Below are positions 4,843 through 34,474 of a stretch of DNA of 37,685 nt, in pieces. A model generated the notes under the pieces. That model searched no databases, had not been told where the DNA came from, and saw only the letters and a program-made list of their open reading frames with translations. Source of the stretch: a virus. Where the stretch lies: positions 1 to 37,685 of the IMG/VR virus record IMGVR_UViG_3300045950_000333, one strand, 5' to 3'. Each line of letters opens with the position of its first letter. Position 1 is the stretch's first letter. Both the position numbers and the translations under genes were made by a program.

Positions 4843-5789
4843 ACCGTGATCGCTCGAACCCCTTTCAGGATCGCGGCGAAATCGTGCGTTCCGGGCGCCG
4901 CGATCTTTCCCCGGCTTTGGGCAAACTCGAAAGGTTCGCCGATATCCTGTTGCCGCGCGACGCGGAAGAACCAATCCTGGCGCCCGGCCCGCGCGCGGCG
5001 CTATTCGAATGGCTTACCGAAATCCGTTGCAAGAACGACCTCGCGGCGGTTGGGATCAAGCCGCGCCGCACCGTTCTTCTGTATGGGCCGCCCGGCTGCG
5101 GCAAGACAACCTTCGCGCATCATTTCGCGGCGCGCCTTGGCCTCCCCTTGGCCTGCGTCCGATCGGAAAGCCTCGTCGAATCGTTTCTTGGCAAGACCGG
5201 CCAGAACATCGGCGCGCTTTTCGATTGTATGAAGGAAACCGAGGGACAAGCGGTCATCTTCTTCGATGAAGTCGATGCTCTTGGCGGCCGGCGCATGAAC
5301 GATCAAGGCGCGTCGGTGGAACGCGCGAATTCGTTGAACGTGCTTCTCCGTCGCATCGAAACCTTCGATGGCATCGCGCTTGCCGCGACGAACCGGCAAG
5401 ACTTCCTCGACTCGGCGCTATGGCGCCGGTTCGACATGCAAGTTTCGATCGATCTTCCGGGCGCGGATGAACGCTTCGCGATCTTGCGCCGCTATATCGC
5501 GCCCTTCGATCCGCCGGACGAAGACATCGACATCTTGGTCGATCTTACGGTCGGCGCATCGCCCGCATTGCTGCGGGCGTTGATGGAGGGGTTGAAGCGG
5601 ATCGTCATCGTCGGCCCGAAAGTTGGCCGGCCGATCGGCGATCCCATCGATGCATTCGGGCCGGTTGTCGCCGCCGTGGCGCCGCCCCCCGAATACGATC
5701 CGCCTCCCCCGCTTTGGAAGAACGCCAACGCGCTCGAAGAGCTCGCGGCCTGGCAATGGCCCATGGGGCGGAAAAAGGGGGATGGCTGA
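4839..5789 (+). CDS. AAA-family ATPase (FtsH/Cdc48-like core)
   Basis: A 316-residue single-ring AAA ATPase. Walker A GPPGCGKT lies at residues 83-90, Walker B VIFFDEVD at 139-146, sensor 1 AATNR at 182-186 and an arginine-finger candidate in LWRRFD at 194-199. The pore-loop region is SFLGKTGQN (115-123). No transmembrane segment, protease or N-terminal substrate domain is present, only about 75 N-terminal residues and a Pro-rich tail, so it would remodel a protein given to it by a partner. The ATG at 4839 was chosen because it forms the ATGA overlap used throughout this operon; ATG 4833 is an alternative close to GGAGG. Prophage AAA ATPases of this type are common but their substrates are unknown. 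Confidence 0.88.
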   Translation: MNRDRSNPFQDRGEIVRSGRRDLSPALGKLERFADILLPRDAEEPILAPGPRAALFEWLTEIRCKNDLAAVGIKPRRTVLLYGPPGCGKTTFAHHFAARLGLPLACVRSESLVESFLGKTGQNIGALFDCMKETEGQAVIFFDEVDALGGRRMNDQGASVERANSLNVLLRRIETFDGIALAATNRQDFLDSALWRRFDMQVSIDLPGADERFAILRRYIAPFDPPDEDIDILVDLTVGASPALLRALMEGLKRIVIVGPKVGRPIGDPIDAFGPVVAAVAPPPEYDPPPPLWKNANALEELAAWQWPMGRKKGDG

Positions 5790-13402: not shown

Positions 13403-14196
13403 GCAATCTTACCTTCGTCAAGGGCGATCGCGAGCCGGTCGATCTCGATCCGGTATCGCAAGCGATCCTCGATGTCGGATCTGGAACGTCGATCTTCGAC
13501 CCGGTCGTTTGCGAAATAGCCTACCGGTGGTTTTGCCCACCGGCGGGAACGGTGCTCGATCCGTTCGCCGGTGGATCGGTTCGCGGGATTGTGGCATCGC
13601 GCCTCGGGCGCCGATACGTTGGCGTCGAACTACGAAAAGAACAGGTCGCGGCGAACCGCGCGCAGCTCCATCTTGCTGGCGATCCAGCACCCGAGTGGCG
13701 ACAAGGCGACGCCCGGAGCGTCGCCAAGTTGGCGCGCGATGTTACTGCCGATCTTGTTTTCTCGTGCCCGCCATACTGGAACTTGGAAGAGTACTCGGAC
13801 GATCCGGCCGATCTTTCCAACATGGGCCGCGACGAATTCTTCGCGGCCTACGAGGCCGTCATCGCGGCGGCGGTGGCACGCATGCGCGAGGATCGGTTCG
13901 CCGTTTGGGTGGTTGGCGATGTTCGCGACGCGGACGGTTTCTACATCAACCTGCCGGGTCGGACGGCCGAGGCCTTCGAACGCGCTGGCGCGCGCTACTA
14001 CAACGATGCGATCCTCGTTACGGCGGTCGGATCGTTGCCTATCCGCGCCGGGCGCCAATTCGTGGCGTCGCGGAAGCTCGGGCGCACCCATCAGAATGTG
14101 ATGGTGTTCTGCAAAGGCGATCCGAGGCGTGCTACAGAGGCGTGCGGCATCGTCGAATTCGGCGAAATCGCGCCGGAAGGGGAAGCGGACGCATGA
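13399..14196 (+). CDS. DNA methyltransferase (N6/N4 amino type)
   Basis: A 265-residue SAM-dependent methyltransferase. Motif I is DPFAGGSVRG (54-63) and motif IV is SCPPY (122-126), the S/D-P-P-Y form used by N4-cytosine and N6-adenine enzymes; GTSIFDPVVCEIAYRWF (29-45) is the preceding helix and FSCPPYWNLEEYSDDPADLS the extended motif IV. The order I-then-IV is seen. No restriction endonuclease is nearby, so it is an orphan (protective, regulatory or packaging-related) enzyme. GTG start at 13399 overlaps the ParB-like stop by four bases. It is downstream of, and possibly a split part of, the ParB protein. It is also adjacent to a PLP-like enzyme. Confidence 0.9.
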   Translation: MSNLTFVKGDREPVDLDPVSQAILDVGSGTSIFDPVVCEIAYRWFCPPAGTVLDPFAGGSVRGIVASRLGRRYVGVELRKEQVAANRAQLHLAGDPAPEWRQGDARSVAKLARDVTADLVFSCPPYWNLEEYSDDPADLSNMGRDEFFAAYEAVIAAAVARMREDRFAVWVVGDVRDADGFYINLPGRTAEAFERAGARYYNDAILVTAVGSLPIRAGRQFVASRKLGRTHQNVMVFCKGDPRRATEACGIVEFGEIAPEGEADA

Positions 14197-14897
14197 CCGC
14201 GCCCGTCATTCGCGAGCACGACGGCATGTTGGTGGTGCGGGACGATCTCTTTCCCGGTGGCACCAAGGCGCGCTTCATGTCGATATTGTTCGACAGCGCG
14301 CAAGAGGCGGTCTATGCGTCGCCAGCGGAAGGTGGTGCGCAAACCGCCTTGGCGCATGTCGCCCGACGCCTCGGCAAGCGCGCGACCATCTTCGTCGCCG
14401 CGCGCAAGCGCATGCACGATCGAACGCTCGAAGCCTCGCGCTTGGGTGCCAAGATCGTCCCGGTTTCGCCTGGGTATCTTTCGGTGGTTCAAGCCCGCGC
14501 GCGGGAATATGCCGCGCAGCATGGCGCGGCATTGGTTCCTTTCGGGGTCGATACGCCCGCCGCGGTCGATGCCATCGCGGCGGCGGCGCGCGCTACAGGC
14601 GTCGAACCAGACGAAGTGTGGTGCGCCGCCGGATCGGGAGTTTTGGCGCGTGGCCTGGCGAAGGCGTGGCCGAACGCTCAGCGGCATGTCGTGCAAATCG
14701 GGCGCGAACTAGTGCCAGCAGATGTGGCTGGCGCGCGCATTCATGTGTATCGCCTTCCCTTCGGGCAAGCGGCGAAGGTGGCGCCACCCTTCCCATCCGA
14801 TCCGCACTACGATGCGAAGGCTTGGGAAATAGCAACGGCCCGCCGAGGGGCGGGCCGAGTGCTGTTCTGGAATGTGACGGGGCCGGCGCGGCCCTGA
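14193..14897 (+). CDS. Fold-type-II PLP-dependent enzyme-like phage protein
   Basis: A 234-residue protein with the layout of the tryptophan synthase beta/ACC deaminase superfamily. VVRDDLFPGGTKARF (14-28) carries the probable Schiff-base lysine K25, like the RDDL...GGNK motif of ACC deaminase and D-cysteine desulfhydrase. YASPAEGGAQTALAHVARRL resembles the substrate-binding loop, TIFVAARKR the cofactor domain and CAAGSGVLARGL (144-155) the Gly-rich phosphate-binding loop. It is shorter than cellular relatives (about 330). Reaction unknown. It overlaps the methyltransferase by ATGA. A PLP enzyme next to a DNA methyltransferase suggests a role in nucleotide or DNA-base modification, but only context supports this. 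Confidence 0.75.
   Translation: MTAPVIREHDGMLVVRDDLFPGGTKARFMSILFDSAQEAVYASPAEGGAQTALAHVARRLGKRATIFVAARKRMHDRTLEASRLGAKIVPVSPGYLSVVQARAREYAAQHGAALVPFGVDTPAAVDAIAAAARATGVEPDEVWCAAGSGVLARGLAKAWPNAQRHVVQIGRELVPADVAGARIHVYRLPFGQAAKVAPPFPSDPHYDAKAWEIATARRGAGRVLFWNVTGPARP
14836..14857. terminator. Strong GC hairpin near the convergent gene ends
   Basis: CGGCCCGCC-GAGG-GGCGGGCCG has a nine-pair perfect stem inside the last 60 bases of the PLP-like gene, in front of the tail-to-tail junction with the minus-strand gene. It lacks a proper U-tract on the plus side (AGTGCTGTTCT) and has only a weak one on the minus side (GTTGCTATTT), so it could be an attenuating or leftward terminator. Confidence 0.35.
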
Positions 14898-24147: not shown

Positions 24148-25101
24148 ATGGCACGCGCTCAGGGCGCGCGGGCGCAATTGGCGCTCGCGTTCGAATCCGT
24201 CTACGGCACGCCACCGACGCCCCCGGCGTTCTGGCGGATGCCGTTCGCCTCGTCCACCCTCGGCTCCGAACGGCCGCTCCTCGCGTCCGAGTTGCTCGGC
24301 TACGGCCGCGATCCGTTGCCGCCGGTGCCGGATGTCGAAACCGGCGACGGCGATATCGTCGTGCCGATCGATCTTCGCGCCTGGGGCGTATGGCTCAAGG
24401 CGGCCTTCGGCGCGCCGAACACGACCGGCGCCGGGCCGTATACGCATGTCTTCCAATCGGGCGGCTGGTCGCTGCCGTCAATGTCGATCGAAGCCGGCAA
24501 CCCGGAAGTGCCGTCCTATCGTATGTCGTCCGGTTGCGTGCTCAACTCGCTTTCGTGGACCATGCAGCGATCCGGGTTGCTTACCGCGACCGTCGGCTTG
24601 GTTGCCCAAGGCGAAACGGCGGCCGGAACAAGTTCAGCGGGAACGCTTACCGATTTCGATGTCGTGCGCTTCGGGCAATTCAACGGCGCCGTCGAACGCA
24701 ACGGCACGCCGTTGGGCAACATCGTCTCGGCGCAGATCACCTATTCGAACAACCTCGATCGTATCGAAACCATCCGCAACGACGGCAGAATCGAGGGCGC
24801 CGATCCGACGATCGCGGCCCTTAGCGGTACGATCGATGTCCGCTTCGCCGATCAAACGTTGCTTAACCAGGCAATCAACGGTGATCCGGCCGAACTCACG
24901 TTCGGGTTCGTGCGCTCGGCGAGCCAATCCTTCGAATTGGTCGCGCACGCCGTCTACCTGCCGAAGCCGCGCCTGCCGATCCAAGGTCCGGCGGGCGTGC
25001 AGGCGACCTTCGAATGGCAGGCCGCCCGCGACGCCGTTCTCGGGCGCATGTGCACCGCCACGCTGATCAACGACGTGGCCGATTACGACAATCCGACCTG
25101 A
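24148..25101 (+). CDS. Phage tail tube protein
   Basis: A 317-residue protein made of two beta-rich halves. QGARAQLALAFESVYGTPPT at the N-terminus, then GPYTHVFQSGGWSLPSMSIE, ITYSNNLDRIETIRNDGRIE and DPTIAALSGTIDVRFADQTL are typical of the phage tail tube family in which two tube folds occur in one chain. It is the main structural protein of the non-contractile tail. Start ATG 24148 has a strong AAAAGGAGG seven bases upstream, consistent with high expression. Confidence 0.9.
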   Translation: MARAQGARAQLALAFESVYGTPPTPPAFWRMPFASSTLGSERPLLASELLGYGRDPLPPVPDVETGDGDIVVPIDLRAWGVWLKAAFGAPNTTGAGPYTHVFQSGGWSLPSMSIEAGNPEVPSYRMSSGCVLNSLSWTMQRSGLLTATVGLVAQGETAAGTSSAGTLTDFDVVRFGQFNGAVERNGTPLGNIVSAQITYSNNLDRIETIRNDGRIEGADPTIAALSGTIDVRFADQTLLNQAINGDPAELTFGFVRSASQSFELVAHAVYLPKPRLPIQGPAGVQATFEWQAARDAVLGRMCTATLINDVADYDNPT

Positions 25102-25111
25102 TGGGCGCTTC

Positions 25112-25552
25112 ATGATCCGGTTGAACATCGCCGCCGAACCGTTTTGGCTCGATCTTTCGCATGGCGTGCGCGTCAAGGTGCCGCCGCTTACGGCAGCCAT
25201 CATGATGGCGGCGCGAAGCGATCCCGCCGTCGCCGATCTTCCCGACGATACGCCGCTGGGCGTTCGGTCGCTCGCCTTCTGTAAGGCGGTTGGGCGGCTC
25301 ACGATCCAAGAATGGGATGGTGTCGGCGACATGAACGGCGATCCCGTGGCGCCAAGCCCGGCGGGGATCGATGCCTTGCTTGATCTCTATCCGATATTCG
25401 AAGCATTCGAAATCAAGTACGTGGCCGGCCAGGGGCTCGCGTTGGACGCCGAAAAAAACGCATTCGCGCCCTCGCCGAATGGCATTTCGGCGGGGGCGAA
25501 CGATATTGCGCCGCCTGCGAAGGGAAATGCGCCGAATGCCCCGCGGTCCTGA
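25112..25552 (+). CDS. Tail assembly chaperone, short form (gpG-like)
   Basis: A 146-residue protein: FWLDLSHGVRVKVPPLTAAI, then LAFCKAVGRLTIQEWDGVGD and GIDALLDLYPIFEAFEIKYV, a mostly helical chaperone-like sequence. Between tail tube and tape measure, this is where lambda gpG/gpGT lies. Residues after about 116 (FAPSPNGISAGANDIAPPAK) are low-complexity, as expected when the functional continuation is in another frame. It contains the A AAA AAC slip site at codons 114-116. Confidence 0.82.
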   Translation: MIRLNIAAEPFWLDLSHGVRVKVPPLTAAIMMAARSDPAVADLPDDTPLGVRSLAFCKAVGRLTIQEWDGVGDMNGDPVAPSPAGIDALLDLYPIFEAFEIKYVAGQGLALDAEKNAFAPSPNGISAGANDIAPPAKGNAPNAPRS

Positions 25553-25788
25553 ATGCCCCTCGAACGCTTGAGGGCTGGCAAGTCTGGGATTTGGCCTTGC
25601 GGCTCGGCGGACAACTCCGGGCGGTGCCAACCGCCATCCTCGGATGGGATTTCGGGGCCGCCCTGGCGATGGCGCGCGCGCTGGGCGTCAATCCCGTGGT
25701 TGCCGCGGAAGTCCTGCCCGAAATCGAAGCAATCGCGATCCGGCAAATGAACGATCGCCTAAAGATCGGGGTGCAATCCGATGGCTGA
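25112..25788 (+). CDS. Tail assembly chaperone, -1 frameshift long form (gpGT-like)
   Basis: Predicted 225-residue product made of codons 1-116 of the short form (25112-25459) then a -1 shift, reading CGC at 25459-25461 onward to TGA at 25786-25788. The extension is 109 residues: a short RIRALAEWHFGGGERY, a zinc-ribbon-like CAACEGKCAEC (C-x2-C-x3-C-x2-C), then LEGWQVWDLALRLGGQLRAV, TAILGWDFGAALAMARALG and EVLPEIEAIAIRQMNDRLK. The -1 frame has no stop over the full 330 bases, no usable start of its own before the folded part, and ends in overlap with the tape measure gene, as gpGT-type frames do. Confidence 0.75.
25453..25459 (+). promoter_or_regulatory. Programmed -1 frameshift slippery heptamer, A AAA AAC
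   Basis: In the chaperone reading frame the codons are GAA AAA AAC, so the heptamer A AAA AAC is in the exact X XXY YYZ register. A run of seven A in a roughly 64% GC gene is striking. Downstream, GGCGG (from about 25488) and CCGCC (about 25512) could form a weak stimulatory stem. Confidence 0.72.
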
Positions 25789-28183
25789 ACGTCGCGCATC
25801 CGTGCGCCTGCAAGTGGTCGGCGGCACCGAAGCCAAGGCCGAATTGGCGTCCGTCGGCGCGGAAGGGCAGCGGTCCCTCGAACGGATTACGCGCGCGACG
25901 CAACCGGCGTCCGCCGGCCTGCGCGTCGTCGATGCCGTCGCCGGAGAAGCGCGGCAATCGGTCGAACAATTCGCGGCGCGCGCCGGTGTCGCAGGCACGG
26001 CCCTTAGCGCGTTGGGAGCCGTTGGAGCCGTCGCGGCGGCGGGCGTTGGCGCCGTCGTCGCCGCGCTCGCCGCCGGCGTGCGGGAATTCGAGCAAAAGGA
26101 ACGCGCGTTCCTGCGGCTTGAGCAGGTCATTCGCGCGACCGGACACGCGGCCGGCATCACGGCGGGCGAAATCCGCGATATCGCCGACGAGCTCGAAAGC
26201 ACAACGCTCGCCGGCGATACCGATGTCATGGGCGCTGGCGCGGTGCTTGCCACCTTCCGCGCGATCTCCGGCGACGAATTCAAACGCGCGCTGCGCGCGG
26301 CGCAGGATCTGGCCGCGGTCTTCGGGCAGGATATCCAGTCGGCAGCCGTCCAGTTGGGCAAGGCTTTGGAGGACCCCATCAACGGCATCACTGCGCTTCG
26401 GCGTGTCGGTGTCTCGTTCACCGCATCCCAAAAGGAAATGATCGCGGAAATGGTCCGCGTGGGCGATATCGCGGCCGCCCAACGGATCGTCCTCGAAACG
26501 CTCGAACAACAGGTCGGCGGAGCCGGCGCGGCCGAGGCCGGTGGCGTTAGCGGCGCGTTCCATCGGGCGAGCGCCGCAACCGGGAATTTCCTCGCCAAGC
26601 TCGCGGAAGTGACCGGCGCCGCCGGCTTCGCCCAAGGCGCTTTGGACGGATTGGCCGGCGCCGTCAACGCGGTGACGAACGCCTTGTCGCGCATGAATGA
26701 CGAAGGCGATGTCGGCCAAGTCGTCGTGCGTTTGAACCGCCAATTGATCCAGGCGCAGGATTACCTCAAGCACCTTGAAGAGGCCGGCGCCGATCCGATG
26801 GCGATCGCGATCGCGCGCAGCCAAGTCGACGATCTCGATCGCCGAATCAACGCGGTGATCGAGCGCGGCCGCAAGGAGGTTGCCGAGGCCGAACGGGCCG
26901 AAGCCGGCCGCTTGGCGGCAGAAGCCGAGGCGAAAACCGAAAAGGGGCTCGCCCGCCTTGCCGAACTGCGGAAGGAATTGGAAGGGTTAGGAACGCCGGA
27001 AGAAAAGCTCGCCGCGATCAACCGGCGCGTGGCGGAAACGGTGACGCAGCTCGAAAAGCTTCGCACGCAGGGCAACACGGCGGCCATCGACGATGCGATT
27101 CAGGCGGCGCAGGAAATCGCCCGGCGGCAAATCGAGGCGATCGAAAGGCCAGCGCGGGAAGCGGCCGAGCGCGAGGCGAAGCGCACGCGGGAACTGATCG
27201 ACGATCTCGCCGGCTCGATTTCGCGGTTCGGCGACGAACGGGCGAAATTCGTCGAGCGCTTCGTTTCGCGCTTGGGCGAGAACGCCACAGCCGAGCAGCG
27301 GGCCGAAGTCGAGCGCCTGGCGAACCGATTGTACGATCTCGAAAGGGCGGAAAAGAAGGCGACCGAAGCGGGGCGCGAGGCCGATCGCCTTCGGCAGGAA
27401 GGCAAGACGATCACCGAATCGGTGCGCACCGCCGCCGAACAATACGCCGATACGCTCGCCAATCTGAATCGCCTGCTCGAAGCGGGCGCCATCTCGCAAG
27501 AAACCTATGCGCGGGCGGTGGCGCGGGCGCGCGAACAATTGGAAGCGGCGGAACGAACCGAATGGCGCCGCACGATGCGGCAATCCGGCGATCTGTTCGG
27601 ACCGGCGCGCGCGGCCTTGGACGAATATATCGAAAAGGCCGGAACGACCGCGCAACTCATCGAGCAGAGCCTTACGAAGGCATTTGCGTCGGCCGAGGAA
27701 GCTGTCGCGCAATTCGTGCGAACCGGCAAGATCGATTTTTCCTCGCTCGTTTCCTCGATGCTCGCCGATCTCGCGCGCCTGTCCATCCGGCAGGCGGTCC
27801 TGTCGCCCTTGGCGAACGCCCTCGGCGGATTGTTAGGGGGGCTTTTCGGCGGCGGCGCGGGCAACATCTTCGCCGGCATCTACCATGCTGGCGGCAAGGC
27901 CGGCGTCGGCGGCGTCATGCGCTCGGTTCCGGCCATCGCCTTCGCCGGCGCGCCGCGCTTCCATCAAGGATCGGGGATGCTCGGGCTGCGGCCCGACGAA
28001 ATCCCAGCCGTGCTGCAACGGGGAGAGCGCGTTCTAAGCCGACAAGAAACGCGGGAATACGAACGCGGCCGCGCCATCAACATCAACATCGCCACGCCCG
28101 ATGTCGAAAATTTCCGGCGCGCGCGCACGCAAATCGCCGCCGACATTGCGCGGGCGGTCGCATTCGGATCGCGGGGCATGTAG
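25781..28183 (+). CDS. Tail tape measure protein
   Basis: An 800-residue protein that sets tail length and is ejected with DNA. It opens with VRLQVVGGTEAKAELASVGA, has a hydrophobic Ala/Gly/Val segment at about 70-100, a typical tape-measure block (about 150-240: ADELESTTLAGDTDVMGAG; FGQDIQSAAVQLGKALEDPI; NGITALRRVGVSFTASQKEM), long Glu/Arg/Ala-rich coiled coils (about 330-620), and a C-terminal lambda-type block with Gly-rich LANALGGLLGGLFGGGAGNI, then FHQGSGMLGLRPDEIPAVLQ and GERVLSRQETREY. The start overlaps the chaperone extension by 8 bases. The length suggests a medium tail (about 100-120 nm if the usual ratio holds). Confidence 0.95.
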   Translation: MAERRASVRLQVVGGTEAKAELASVGAEGQRSLERITRATQPASAGLRVVDAVAGEARQSVEQFAARAGVAGTALSALGAVGAVAAAGVGAVVAALAAGVREFEQKERAFLRLEQVIRATGHAAGITAGEIRDIADELESTTLAGDTDVMGAGAVLATFRAISGDEFKRALRAAQDLAAVFGQDIQSAAVQLGKALEDPINGITALRRVGVSFTASQKEMIAEMVRVGDIAAAQRIVLETLEQQVGGAGAAEAGGVSGAFHRASAATGNFLAKLAEVTGAAGFAQGALDGLAGAVNAVTNALSRMNDEGDVGQVVVRLNRQLIQAQDYLKHLEEAGADPMAIAIARSQVDDLDRRINAVIERGRKEVAEAERAEAGRLAAEAEAKTEKGLARLAELRKELEGLGTPEEKLAAINRRVAETVTQLEKLRTQGNTAAIDDAIQAAQEIARRQIEAIERPAREAAEREAKRTRELIDDLAGSISRFGDERAKFVERFVSRLGENATAEQRAEVERLANRLYDLERAEKKATEAGREADRLRQEGKTITESVRTAAEQYADTLANLNRLLEAGAISQETYARAVARAREQLEAAERTEWRRTMRQSGDLFGPARAALDEYIEKAGTTAQLIEQSLTKAFASAEEAVAQFVRTGKIDFSSLVSSMLADLARLSIRQAVLSPLANALGGLLGGLFGGGAGNIFAGIYHAGGKAGVGGVMRSVPAIAFAGAPRFHQGSGMLGLRPDEIPAVLQRGERVLSRQETREYERGRAININIATPDVENFRRARTQIAADIARAVAFGSRGM

Positions 28184-30505: not shown

Positions 30506-33500
30506 ATGGCATCCGTGATCCTGAATGTCGTCGGCACGGCTCTTGGCGGCCCCCTTGGCGGCGCGATCGGCGCCATCATCGGCGCGGCCATCGATAGCCA
30601 GATCGTTCGCGCGATAACCCCGAACCAAACGCAACGGATCGAGGGGCCGCGGCTGAACGATGTCAAGGTTACGACGTCCACCGAAGGCATGGTGATCCCG
30701 CGCGTCTACGGAACCATGCGCGTCGGCGGGAACATCGTTTGGGCAACGGATTTTCGGGAAGAGGTGCGTACAACCACCCAAAGGACGGGCGGCGGCAAGG
30801 GCGGCGGGGGCGGCGGCGCAACGACCGTTACGACCGAATATTTCTACTATTGCTCGTTCGCCGTGGCGCTTTGCGAAGGCCCTATCGCCGCGATCGGGCG
30901 CATTTGGGCCGATGGCAAACCGTTCGACGTTCCCGGCGCGGTCTATCGCGTCTATCGCGGGACCGAAGATCAGGGGCGCGATCCGCTGATCGCAAGCATG
31001 ATGGGGGCCGACAACACCCCCGCCTATCGCGGGACCGCCTACGTCGTCTTCGACAATCTTCCCTTGGAAAAGTTCGGCAATCGCATTCCGCAACTATCCT
31101 TCGAGGTCTTCCGGCCCTTGGACGATCCGGAATCCGCCGAGCAGCTCGTCAAGAGCGTCACGATGATTCCTTCCGCCGGCGAGTTCGTTTACGCAACCGA
31201 TCCCATCGTCCGGCGCGAGGCAAATGCGTTGTCGGGCATGTTCGTTCGAGACGTTTCGGAAAACGTCCATTCGACCGACGGCCGGCCCGACTTCACCGTT
31301 TCGCTGGATCATCTGGCCGCGATCGCGCCGAACCTGCAATCGGTGGCGCTCGTGGTTTCGTGGTTCGGGACCGATCTGCGATGCGGTCAATGCCTCATCG
31401 TCCCCGGCGTCGAAACGGCAGAGAAGATCACCTACCCGAAGGCATGGTCGGTCAACGGCATCGGTCGCTCCAACGCGCATGTCGTTAGCCAATACCAAGG
31501 CGGCCCCGCCTATGGCGGCACGCCGGCCGATTTCGCGGTTGTGCAAGCCATCCAGGCGCTCAAGGCGCGCGGTCTTCGGGTGACATTCTATCCGTTTGTC
31601 CTCATGGACATTCCCCACGGCAACGGCCTACCGAACCCATATTCCGACAACGCCGGCGCAAGCGGGCAACCGGCCTATCCATGGCGCGGCCGCATTACGT
31701 GCTCGCCGGCGCCGGGGTATGCGGGGAGCCCGGACAAGACCCCATCCGCCGCCGCTCAAGTCAACGCCTTCTTCGGCAACGCGCAGCCGTCGCATTTCCT
31801 TGTATCGGGCACGAACGTTTCGTGGATCGGCCCGGCCGGCGATTGGGGCTTCCGCCGCATGATCCTGCATTACGCGCATCTTTGCGCGGCGGCAGGCGGC
31901 GTCGATGCGTTTCTGATCGGCTCGGAATTGCGCGGGCTTACGCACGTGCGGTCCTCGGCATCCGCCTATCCGGCGGTGGACGCCCTGCGGTCGTTGGCGT
32001 CCGCCGTTCGATCGATCCTCGGCGGCTCGGCCAAGATCTCCTACGCGGCCGATTGGTCGGAATATTTCGGTCATCATCCGCAAGACGGAACGGGCGACGT
32101 GTACTTCCATCTCGATCCGCTATGGGCGGATAGCAACATCAACTTCATCGGCATCGATAACTACATGCCGTTGTCCGATTGGCGCGATGGCTTCTCGCAT
32201 GCCGATGCCGTCGCGGGATGGCGATCGATCTACGATCGCGATTACCTCGAAGCCAACATCGAGGGCGGCGAGGGTTTCGATTGGTACTACGCGAACCAAT
32301 CCGATCGCGACGCGCAGAACCGCACGCCGATAACCGACGGCGCGGGTAAGCCGTGGGTCTTCCGCTACAAGGATATTCGGGCGTGGTGGTCAAACCAACA
32401 TTTCAACCGACCGGGCGGGATCGAAAGCGGAAGCCCGACCGCATGGGTTCCGCAATCGAAGCCGATCCGGTTCACGGAGGCGGGATGCCCCGCTGTCGAT
32501 AAGGGGACGAACCAACCGAACGTCTTCGTCGATCCGAAATCCTCCGAAAGCAACCTGCCCTACTATTCGCGCGGGGCGCGCGACGATTTCATTCAACGCC
32601 GCTACATCGAGGCGCTCTATCACTACTGGTCCGCTAACAACCCCACGTCATCGGGCTACGGTGGCTCGATGATCGAAATGGACGAATTGTCCATATGGAC
32701 ATGGGATGCGCGGCCCTATCCCGCCTTTCCGGCGCGTTCCGACGTATGGGGCGATACCGAAAATTGGCGCCTGGGGCATTGGCTCAACGGCCGATTGGGA
32801 TCGTCCGGCTTGGCCGCGCTCGTTCGCGAACTTTGCCGCCGCGGCGGCATGGCGGATGCCCATATCGACGTGGCGCAATTGGCAGCGACCGTGCCGGGCT
32901 ACTTGATCGAAGCGATCGAAAGCCCGCGCGGATCGATCGAACCGCTTGCGCGCTTTTATGGTTTCGATGCGGTCGAATCCGATGGGGCGATCCGCTTCAT
33001 TCCGCGCGGCCTGGCGCCGGTCGCCACGATCGCGCCGGGCGAACTCGTCGCCGCCCAGCGCCGCGAAAACGACGATATCGAATTCACGCGGAGCCAAGAA
33101 ACGGAATTGCCCCTCGCCCTGAAATGGCGCCTGATCCAGGCGGGCGAGGAATACAAGGGCATGACCGTCGAGGCGCGGCGCATCGCGGTCGATACCGCGC
33201 GCATCCGCTCCGAGAATTTTTCGATCGCGGCCGCCGGCGCGGAGGCCGATACGCGGTGCCGGCGGGCGTTGTTCGAATCGTGGATCGAACGCGAGCAGGC
33301 TAAGTTCGCGTTGCCGCCGTCCCGCATCGCGCTCGATCCGGCCGATGTCGTTTTGGTCGAACACGATGGGCGCCTCATCGAAATGCGCATCGGCGTCATC
33401 GCCGATACCGACGCGCGGACCATCGATGCCGTGCGCACGGATGCGGTCCTCTACGGCGCGCGTCCCGGCGCGGAAAGAACGCCATCGGTTCCCGCGCCGA

Positions 33501-34474
33501 TCGTCTACGGGCTGCCGACCGTCGCCCTCATGGACCTGCCGCTGATCAACGGGGACGTGCCGGCGCATCGGCCCTATATCGCCGTGCATTCTTCGCCGTG
33601 GTACGGCCGGGCGGCGATTTACCGGAGCGTCACGCAAGATGGGTTCACGCTGCTCGATACCGTTGACGTTCCGTCGCGCATCGGTGTCTTGGCCTTCGAT
33701 TTTCATGCGTCGGGCGCGGCCGCCCGGAACTTCGATCTCGGAAACGAGCTCTACATCGATCTGATTTCGGGGACGTTGCAAAGCGTGGCCGATATCGAAT
33801 TGTTCGCCGGCGCCAATACGGCGGCAATCGAATCCGAGCCGGGCGTTTGGGAAATCGTGCAATTCGGCGAAGCCGAGTTGATCGATACCAACCGCTATCG
33901 ATGCCGTCGCCTGTTGCGCGGTCAGTTGGGAACGGAAGGCGCCATGGGAAACCCGGCGCCGGCCGGAAGCCGCGTTGTCATTCTCGATTCAACCATTACG
34001 CCGCTTTCGATCGCGGAAGCGGATGTCGGCATAGCTTTCAATTGGCGCGTCGGCCCGGCGTCGCTTGCTCCGGATGCCGATTCCTACGCGGCCCTGCAAT
34101 TCGCGCCGGCGGCCATTGGCCTACGCCCCTATTCCGTCGGGCATGTAAGCCAACCCTACAAATTCGCCCGCCAACCCGGCGACCTAACGATCTCGTGGGT
34201 GCGGCGCACCCGCTCCCCCGCGGGGGACAACTGGGCGGCTGCGGAAGCGCCGCTGTTCGAGGATTCGGAAGCCTACGCCGTCGACATCCTCGACGGCGCG
34301 ATCATCAAGCGGACGCTTACCGCGAACACGGCATCCATCATCTATACCGGCACGCAGCAAATTGCCGATTGGGGCGGCCTTCTAGGGCCGGGCGATACGC
34401 TCGATATCGCGATCTACCAGCTTTCGGCCGTCTTCGGGCGCGGCGCGCCGAAGACCGCGCGGTTGTACTTCTAG
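30506..34474 (+). CDS. GTA TIM-barrel-like tail megaprotein (gp15-like)
   Basis: A 1322-residue tail-tip protein equal to Rhodobacter GTA gp15. The N-terminus (ILNVVGTALGGPLGGAIGAI) is hydrophobic. Residues about 390-740 form the GTA TIM-barrel domain related to glycoside hydrolases (AFLIGSELRGLTHVR; ISYAADWSEYFGHHPQDGTG; DVYFHLDPLWADSNINFIGI; RPIRFTEAGCPAVD-like PIRFTEAGCPAVDKGTNQPN), and the rest is the phage-tail_3 like hub with fibronectin-like repeats toward the end (ISWVRRTRSPAGDNW). RGLTH and the FTEAGCP segments carry the conserved glutamates E at SELRG and FTEAG. It likely punctures or degrades cell-surface glycans. Four bases separate it from the previous stop. Confidence 0.93.
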   Translation: MASVILNVVGTALGGPLGGAIGAIIGAAIDSQIVRAITPNQTQRIEGPRLNDVKVTTSTEGMVIPRVYGTMRVGGNIVWATDFREEVRTTTQRTGGGKGGGGGGATTVTTEYFYYCSFAVALCEGPIAAIGRIWADGKPFDVPGAVYRVYRGTEDQGRDPLIASMMGADNTPAYRGTAYVVFDNLPLEKFGNRIPQLSFEVFRPLDDPESAEQLVKSVTMIPSAGEFVYATDPIVRREANALSGMFVRDVSENVHSTDGRPDFTVSLDHLAAIAPNLQSVALVVSWFGTDLRCGQCLIVPGVETAEKITYPKAWSVNGIGRSNAHVVSQYQGGPAYGGTPADFAVVQAIQALKARGLRVTFYPFVLMDIPHGNGLPNPYSDNAGASGQPAYPWRGRITCSPAPGYAGSPDKTPSAAAQVNAFFGNAQPSHFLVSGTNVSWIGPAGDWGFRRMILHYAHLCAAAGGVDAFLIGSELRGLTHVRSSASAYPAVDALRSLASAVRSILGGSAKISYAADWSEYFGHHPQDGTGDVYFHLDPLWADSNINFIGIDNYMPLSDWRDGFSHADAVAGWRSIYDRDYLEANIEGGEGFDWYYANQSDRDAQNRTPITDGAGKPWVFRYKDIRAWWSNQHFNRPGGIESGSPTAWVPQSKPIRFTEAGCPAVDKGTNQPNVFVDPKSSESNLPYYSRGARDDFIQRRYIEALYHYWSANNPTSSGYGGSMIEMDELSIWTWDARPYPAFPARSDVWGDTENWRLGHWLNGRLGSSGLAALVRELCRRGGMADAHIDVAQLAATVPGYLIEAIESPRGSIEPLARFYGFDAVESDGAIRFIPRGLAPVATIAPGELVAAQRRENDDIEFTRSQETELPLALKWRLIQAGEEYKGMTVEARRIAVDTARIRSENFSIAAAGAEADTRCRRALFESWIEREQAKFALPPSRIALDPADVVLVEHDGRLIEMRIGVIADTDARTIDAVRTDAVLYGARPGAERTPSVPAPIVYGLPTVALMDLPLINGDVPAHRPYIAVHSSPWYGRAAIYRSVTQDGFTLLDTVDVPSRIGVLAFDFHASGAAARNFDLGNELYIDLISGTLQSVADIELFAGANTAAIESEPGVWEIVQFGEAELIDTNRYRCRRLLRGQLGTEGAMGNPAPAGSRVVILDSTITPLSIAEADVGIAFNWRVGPASLAPDADSYAALQFAPAAIGLRPYSVGHVSQPYKFARQPGDLTISWVRRTRSPAGDNWAAAEAPLFEDSEAYAVDILDGAIIKRTLTANTASIIYTGTQQIADWGGLLGPGDTLDIAIYQLSAVFGRGAPKTARLYF

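Follow-up and report, generated by a model that had tools for sequence, protein, structure and literature searches.

A putative programmed -1 ribosomal frameshift would add a four-cysteine T domain to the tail assembly chaperone of a siphophage-like virus

A short open reading frame (ORF) between the tail tube and tape measure genes of this virus appears to encode two proteins. From the whole stretch of DNA that was analysed, a virus record of 37,685 bases that we call the window, we put the probability at about 90% that a programmed -1 frameshift of the lambda gpG/gpGT type yields both a short tail assembly chaperone and a fusion of this chaperone with a cysteine knuckle and a T domain. An in-phase slippery heptamer, a -1 frame without a start, selection on that frame, a hairpin downstream and the family of the 0-frame protein together point to this explanation. 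Tail chaperone genes are a classical place for programmed -1 frameshifts; the lambda gpG/gpGT chaperones were reportedly described by Xu, Hendrix and Duda in 2004. The features of the locus are as follows.

24148-25101, + strand: tail tube protein gene, upstream of the chaperone ORF (Pfam Phage_tube_2, 3.2e-58)
25112-25552, + strand: 0-frame tail assembly chaperone, gpG-like short product of 146 amino acids, ending 31 codons past the slip
25453-25459, + strand: slippery heptamer A AAA AAC (-1), in phase within the chaperone ORF
25460-25466, + strand: spacer between heptamer and hairpin, 7 nt
25467-25498, + strand: probable stimulatory hairpin with a 13-bp stem (25467-25479 with 25486-25498) and a 6-nt loop
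25459-25788, + strand: -1 frame extension, the T-like part of the fusion, 109 amino acids plus stop, with no usable start before 25591
25507-25539, + strand: C-x2-C-x3-C-x2-C cluster, a probable zinc knuckle with two CxxC pairs and conserved cysteines
25570-25764, + strand: helical T domain, the DUF7697 match plus its DUF1799-like extent
25781-28183, + strand: tape measure gene (Pfam Tape_meas_lam_C, 7.7e-19; TMP_2, 3.2e-9)

Around the slip site, ORF 25112-25552 reads GCC GAA AAA AAC GCA, which sets A AAA AAC in the phase that a -1 slip requires, just as a preliminary description of this DNA had said. The fusion is predicted to have 225 amino acids, against 146 for the 0-frame product. The -1 frame had been described as open from exactly the slip point to an overlap with the tape measure gene. 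The overlap is there, with the TGA stop of the -1 frame at 25786-25788 and the ATG of the tape measure gene at 25781, but the frame is open from 25384, already upstream of the heptamer. That this frame has no good start of its own held up: the first ATG, GTG or TTG to occur in it, a TTG at 25591, comes only after the cysteine codons.

The gene content of the window fits a temperate siphophage. An integrase lies at the left end, and further genes encode a terminase, a portal, a fused protease-capsid, the tube, the tape measure and a GTA-like tail tip. Pfam matches on either side of the chaperone ORF establish the order tail tube, chaperone, tape measure. The tail module is RcGTA-like, with a GTA_TIM hub and a sub-threshold match to the RcGTA tape measure (window positions 25781-28183 and 30506-34474). 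The phage genome also carries a pyridoxal-phosphate enzyme-like ORF at 13509-14897 (PF00291; PHROG_7093, threonine dehydratase). In the early region, ARAGORN calls a tRNA-Glu (TTC) at 5681-5771 on the - strand, which may be spurious.

The 0-frame protein matches PHROG_313, tail assembly chaperone, with an E value of 3.3e-11, and its length up to the slip is about 115 amino acids in nearly all homologs. Its AlphaFold2 model is good (pLDDT 89). A Foldseek search of this model against the PDB gave no significant match, and tail chaperones surfaced only in the VIA comparison. There, the best VIA-align rows were 3klu (YqbN, which we take to be a tail chaperone; Z 4.9) and then 2ob9 (HK97 tail assembly chaperone; Z 4.1), over 93-95 residues. 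Since Z scores of 4 to 5 are modest, these rows support the identity of the chaperone but do not prove it.

We collected homologs by peptide patterns of the extension, not by the heptamer, and retrieved 80 IMG/VR loci and six phage records that have it. Cysteines 1, 2 and 4 are kept in all 70 distinct homologs, and cysteine 3 in 69 of them. The spacer between the two CxxC pairs is usually 3 residues and ranges to 17, while divergent members retain four cysteines in another arrangement, C-x2-C-x6-C-x11-C. A spacer this variable would suit a metal knuckle rather than a catalytic motif; two CxxC pairs separated by a spacer of variable length are the usual pattern of a zinc knuckle. The cluster had been described as part of a zinc ribbon. 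The C-x2-C-x3-C-x2-C pattern is indeed present and its cysteines are conserved, but the zinc itself is read from a pattern with a variable middle spacer; we conclude that the knuckle probably binds it.

An unlikely alternative is that the frameshift is as described and the cysteines hold an iron-sulfur cluster or redox-sensitive disulfides instead. A ligand cannot be read from sequence alone, and no Pfam zinc family matched the extension homologs above threshold, sub-threshold matches appearing in single members only. The paired CxxC motifs and their variable spacer nevertheless favour zinc, and the reducing cytoplasm would disfavour disulfides. As to its role, the knuckle most likely provides structural support to the T domain or forms part of a face that would bind the tube. 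We consider it improbable that it acts as a metal or redox sensor of the frameshifted form only, such that the small number of GT molecules initiating a tail work, or are released, only when loaded with zinc. If true, this would mean metal-gated tail initiation across a large group of alphaproteobacterial phages.

The C-terminal part of the extension matches Pfam DUF7697 (PF24752) with an E value of 3.2e-20 and 72.2 bits, against a gathering score of 27 (P0002, 57-102), and 42 of 42 homologs match this family as well. PHROG_11212 matches the same helical domain with an E value of 1.2e-19. A second Pfam family, DUF1799 (PF08809), matches residues 39-94 below its gathering score, at 14.6 bits versus 26. 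When the extension was aligned to the DUF1799 set with hhalign, the probability was 95.5; the two are related at the profile level only, and some members of the extension family bridge DUF7697 to DUF1799. DUF1799 is present in 16 of 200 Pseudomonadota genomes. In all 17 of its matches above the cut-off, the domain is encoded in the -1 frame and preceded by A AAA AAC or G GGA AAC, and none of the 17 has the cysteine cluster; the four matches that fall short of the cut-off are those bridging members, of DUF7697 type. Given the shared position of the slip site and the profile homology, members of DUF7697 and of DUF1799 seem to be the T domains that frameshifting adds to tail chaperones. This suggests that the two families represent the part of these chaperones that is made only by frameshifting, and the cysteine knuckle looks like a feature of one branch of T domains. 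In the DUF1799-type chaperones (L172-L190), the 0-frame stop usually comes directly after the heptamer (AAAAAACTGA or similar), versus a 31-codon tail in the DUF7697 branch.

Neither the frameshifted origin nor the knuckle can be seen in the DUF7697 and PHROG_11212 models (52 and 55 positions), because these begin after the cysteines; a frameshifted T domain explains why database models begin mid-domain. At two loci, L003 (3124-3357) and L005 (2124-2357), gene callers place the extension in a CDS of its own, which begins about 120 nt past the slip point. The extension yielded a structural model of only fair quality (pLDDT 73). Foldseek found no significant match to it, several weak viral rows being tape-measure or tail chaperones, and the rows from PDB and VIA comparisons of this model were uninformative. 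Solved structures searched by sequence with both profiles returned nothing.

For the heptamer, we examined 70 distinct phage and viral-contig sequences, the window included, together with 80 bacterial contigs, mostly from Rhodobacterales with some from Rhizobiales and Sphingomonadales. A slippery heptamer is found at the same residue, exactly where the match begins, in all of these sequences except one contig, where Ns adjoin the site. Nearly all phage and viral homologs have A AAA AAC; five distinct sequences have G GGA AAC and a few have A AAA AAA or A AAA AAG. The heptamer changes between slippery sequences only. Among the bacterial contigs, A AAA AAC is present in 79 of 80, the remaining one being the contig with Ns. 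The slip codons of 67 homologs are GAA AAA AAC in 59 cases and GAG GGA AAC in five, even though, across these genes, Lys is encoded by AAA in only 27% of cases and Glu by GAA in 47%. These numbers bear out the earlier view that the heptamer is improbable by chance.

The hairpin, which the preliminary description had overlooked, is present in almost every homolog. Paired bases fill 95.7% of the cells in the stem columns of the alignment, versus 43-57% after a shift of the partner by 1-3 columns. Native hairpins also fold more stably than synonymous recodings of the -1 frame (median z -2.5), with 12.3 pairs observed versus 9.2. The recoding control used the codon usage of the window and left the 0-frame tail unprotected, although no selection at the protein level is seen in that frame. 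By this test the stem is weak in a few homologs, such as L024, L028, L038 and L065. A Gly residue encoded within the stem uses GGG in 62 of 68 homologs, whereas GGG encodes roughly 18% of glycines across the window. Because the region hardly varies, the stem shows modest covariation, with few changes and a weak shuffle-based test; we therefore placed weight on the shifted-partner controls and the synonymous recoding. Judged by these comparisons of aligned sequences, the hairpin is conserved beyond coding need. No Rfam family was found at the hairpin. Stimulators are known to act at a spacing of 5-9 nt, which the 7-nt spacer fits (PMC5009743), and hairpins after such sites in tail genes were proposed earlier for phages KL1 and AH2 (PMC3483164).

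The homopolymeric run of seven A could also cause RNA polymerase to slip, which would put some mRNAs in the other frame. We regard such transcriptional slippage as very unlikely: homologs have GGGAAAC, with no long homopolymer, at the same position, and a hairpin spaced 5-9 nt from the site is typical of ribosomal stimulators.

Over the 31 codons after the slip, dN/dS is 0.35 in the -1 frame versus 1.3 in the 0-frame continuation and 1.4 in the third frame, which indicates protein-level selection on the -1 frame from the slip point on. In the overlap, this selection acts on the -1 frame only. The first starts of the -1 frame are scattered over many positions among the homologs, and a Shine-Dalgarno-like site precedes the first start in only 1 of 70. 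The alignment of homologs that had been proposed as a check thus shows the heptamer and the four cysteines to be conserved, and the missing start with them. Homologs that have their own start and ribosome site, or that lack a slip site, did not emerge from it, apart from the single Shine-Dalgarno-like site and the contig with Ns.

These data bear directly on whether the second half is a separate protein, made with no frameshift from an internal start, for example the TTG at 25591, or by reinitiation. A separate downstream CDS is annotated in Nostoc phage Nsp-JY21 and in Synechococcus phage Sc-Yong805-1. An internal start would lie after the cysteine cluster, yet the region of the -1 frame that precedes it is under selection; the varied starts and the near absence of ribosome sites also speak against it, and a conserved heptamer would not be needed. 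We give this possibility slightly less credence still than slippage of RNA polymerase. A sequencing error or a decayed gene has a negligible chance of explaining the split: although some sequencing methods make errors in A7 runs, phage, viral and bacterial contigs of many sources, isolate genomes included, show this split at one and the same codon. All three of these explanations were judged unlikely from the heptamers of homologs, the selection and the data on starts and Shine-Dalgarno sites.

We infer that a programmed ribosomal frameshift takes place here, and at a low rate. Most ribosomes would produce the 146-residue, G-like chaperone. The hairpin 7 nt downstream would slow a minority of them, and a slip at A AAA AAC, from AAA AAC to AAA AAA, would give the 225-residue GT-like fusion. 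The added 109 residues would start as a short helix and the four-cysteine knuckle and continue as a helical domain of the DUF7697/DUF1799 type. One point against this explanation is that, in E. coli, slippage is less ready on A AAA AAC than on A AAA AAG (PMC5009743). In lambda, the G part binds the tape measure and the T part binds the tube protein (PMC5009743). By analogy, the G part, as the abundant short form, would coat the tape measure protein, and the T part, in the rare long form, would recruit tail-tube subunits to it.

For DUF7697 and DUF1799, both of unknown function in Pfam, our analysis suggests a role in tail assembly chaperones. The probable zinc knuckle may offer a handle for purifying the T domain and solving its structure. 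The homologs, with their conserved hairpin and interchangeable heptamers, form a natural series for studying what sets the ratio of G to GT.

The frameshift is not new, since records of related Rhodobacter phages already show it as a joined CDS. A close likeness is to the RcC-cluster phages of Rhodobacter capsulatus (RcKemmy, RcKai and others), whose homologous extension is 49-51% identical and has the four cysteines and the hairpin; the RcKemmy and RcKai records annotate the joined CDS as a tail assembly chaperone. The heptamer is G GGA AAC in the RcC-cluster phages and A AAA AAC in the window. In the passages of the RcC-cluster paper that a term search matched, the frameshift is treated as usual and the cysteines and hairpin are not mentioned (PMC8601537). 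Within the subset of open-access literature searched, we found no paper that names DUF7697 and none that ties zinc to a frameshifted extension. The knuckle, the conserved hairpin of the family and the assignment of DUF7697 and DUF1799 as T domains appear to be undescribed in that subset, which agrees with the earlier suggestion that the zinc-ribbon-like part might be new.

Members of DUF7697 and PHROG_11212 share the C-terminal helical domain of the extension. The DUF1799 extensions of siphophages and prophages have a homologous T domain behind A AAA AAC or G GGA AAC; unlike the window, they have no cysteine cluster, and their 0 frame usually stops right after the heptamer. HK97 gp13/gp14 (AF069529) is likewise a tail chaperone, with an annotated -1 frameshift, and a search of this record for DUF1799 gave no match. 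The precedent of lambda gpG/gpGT, invoked from the start for this locus, fits by gene order, frame and family of the 0-frame protein. In both, tail tube and tape measure genes flank the chaperone gene, a -1 heptamer sits near the end of the 0 frame, and the extension ends beside the tape measure gene. The window differs from lambda in its cysteine knuckle, in a 0-frame product that continues for 31 codons past the slip, and in its conserved hairpin.
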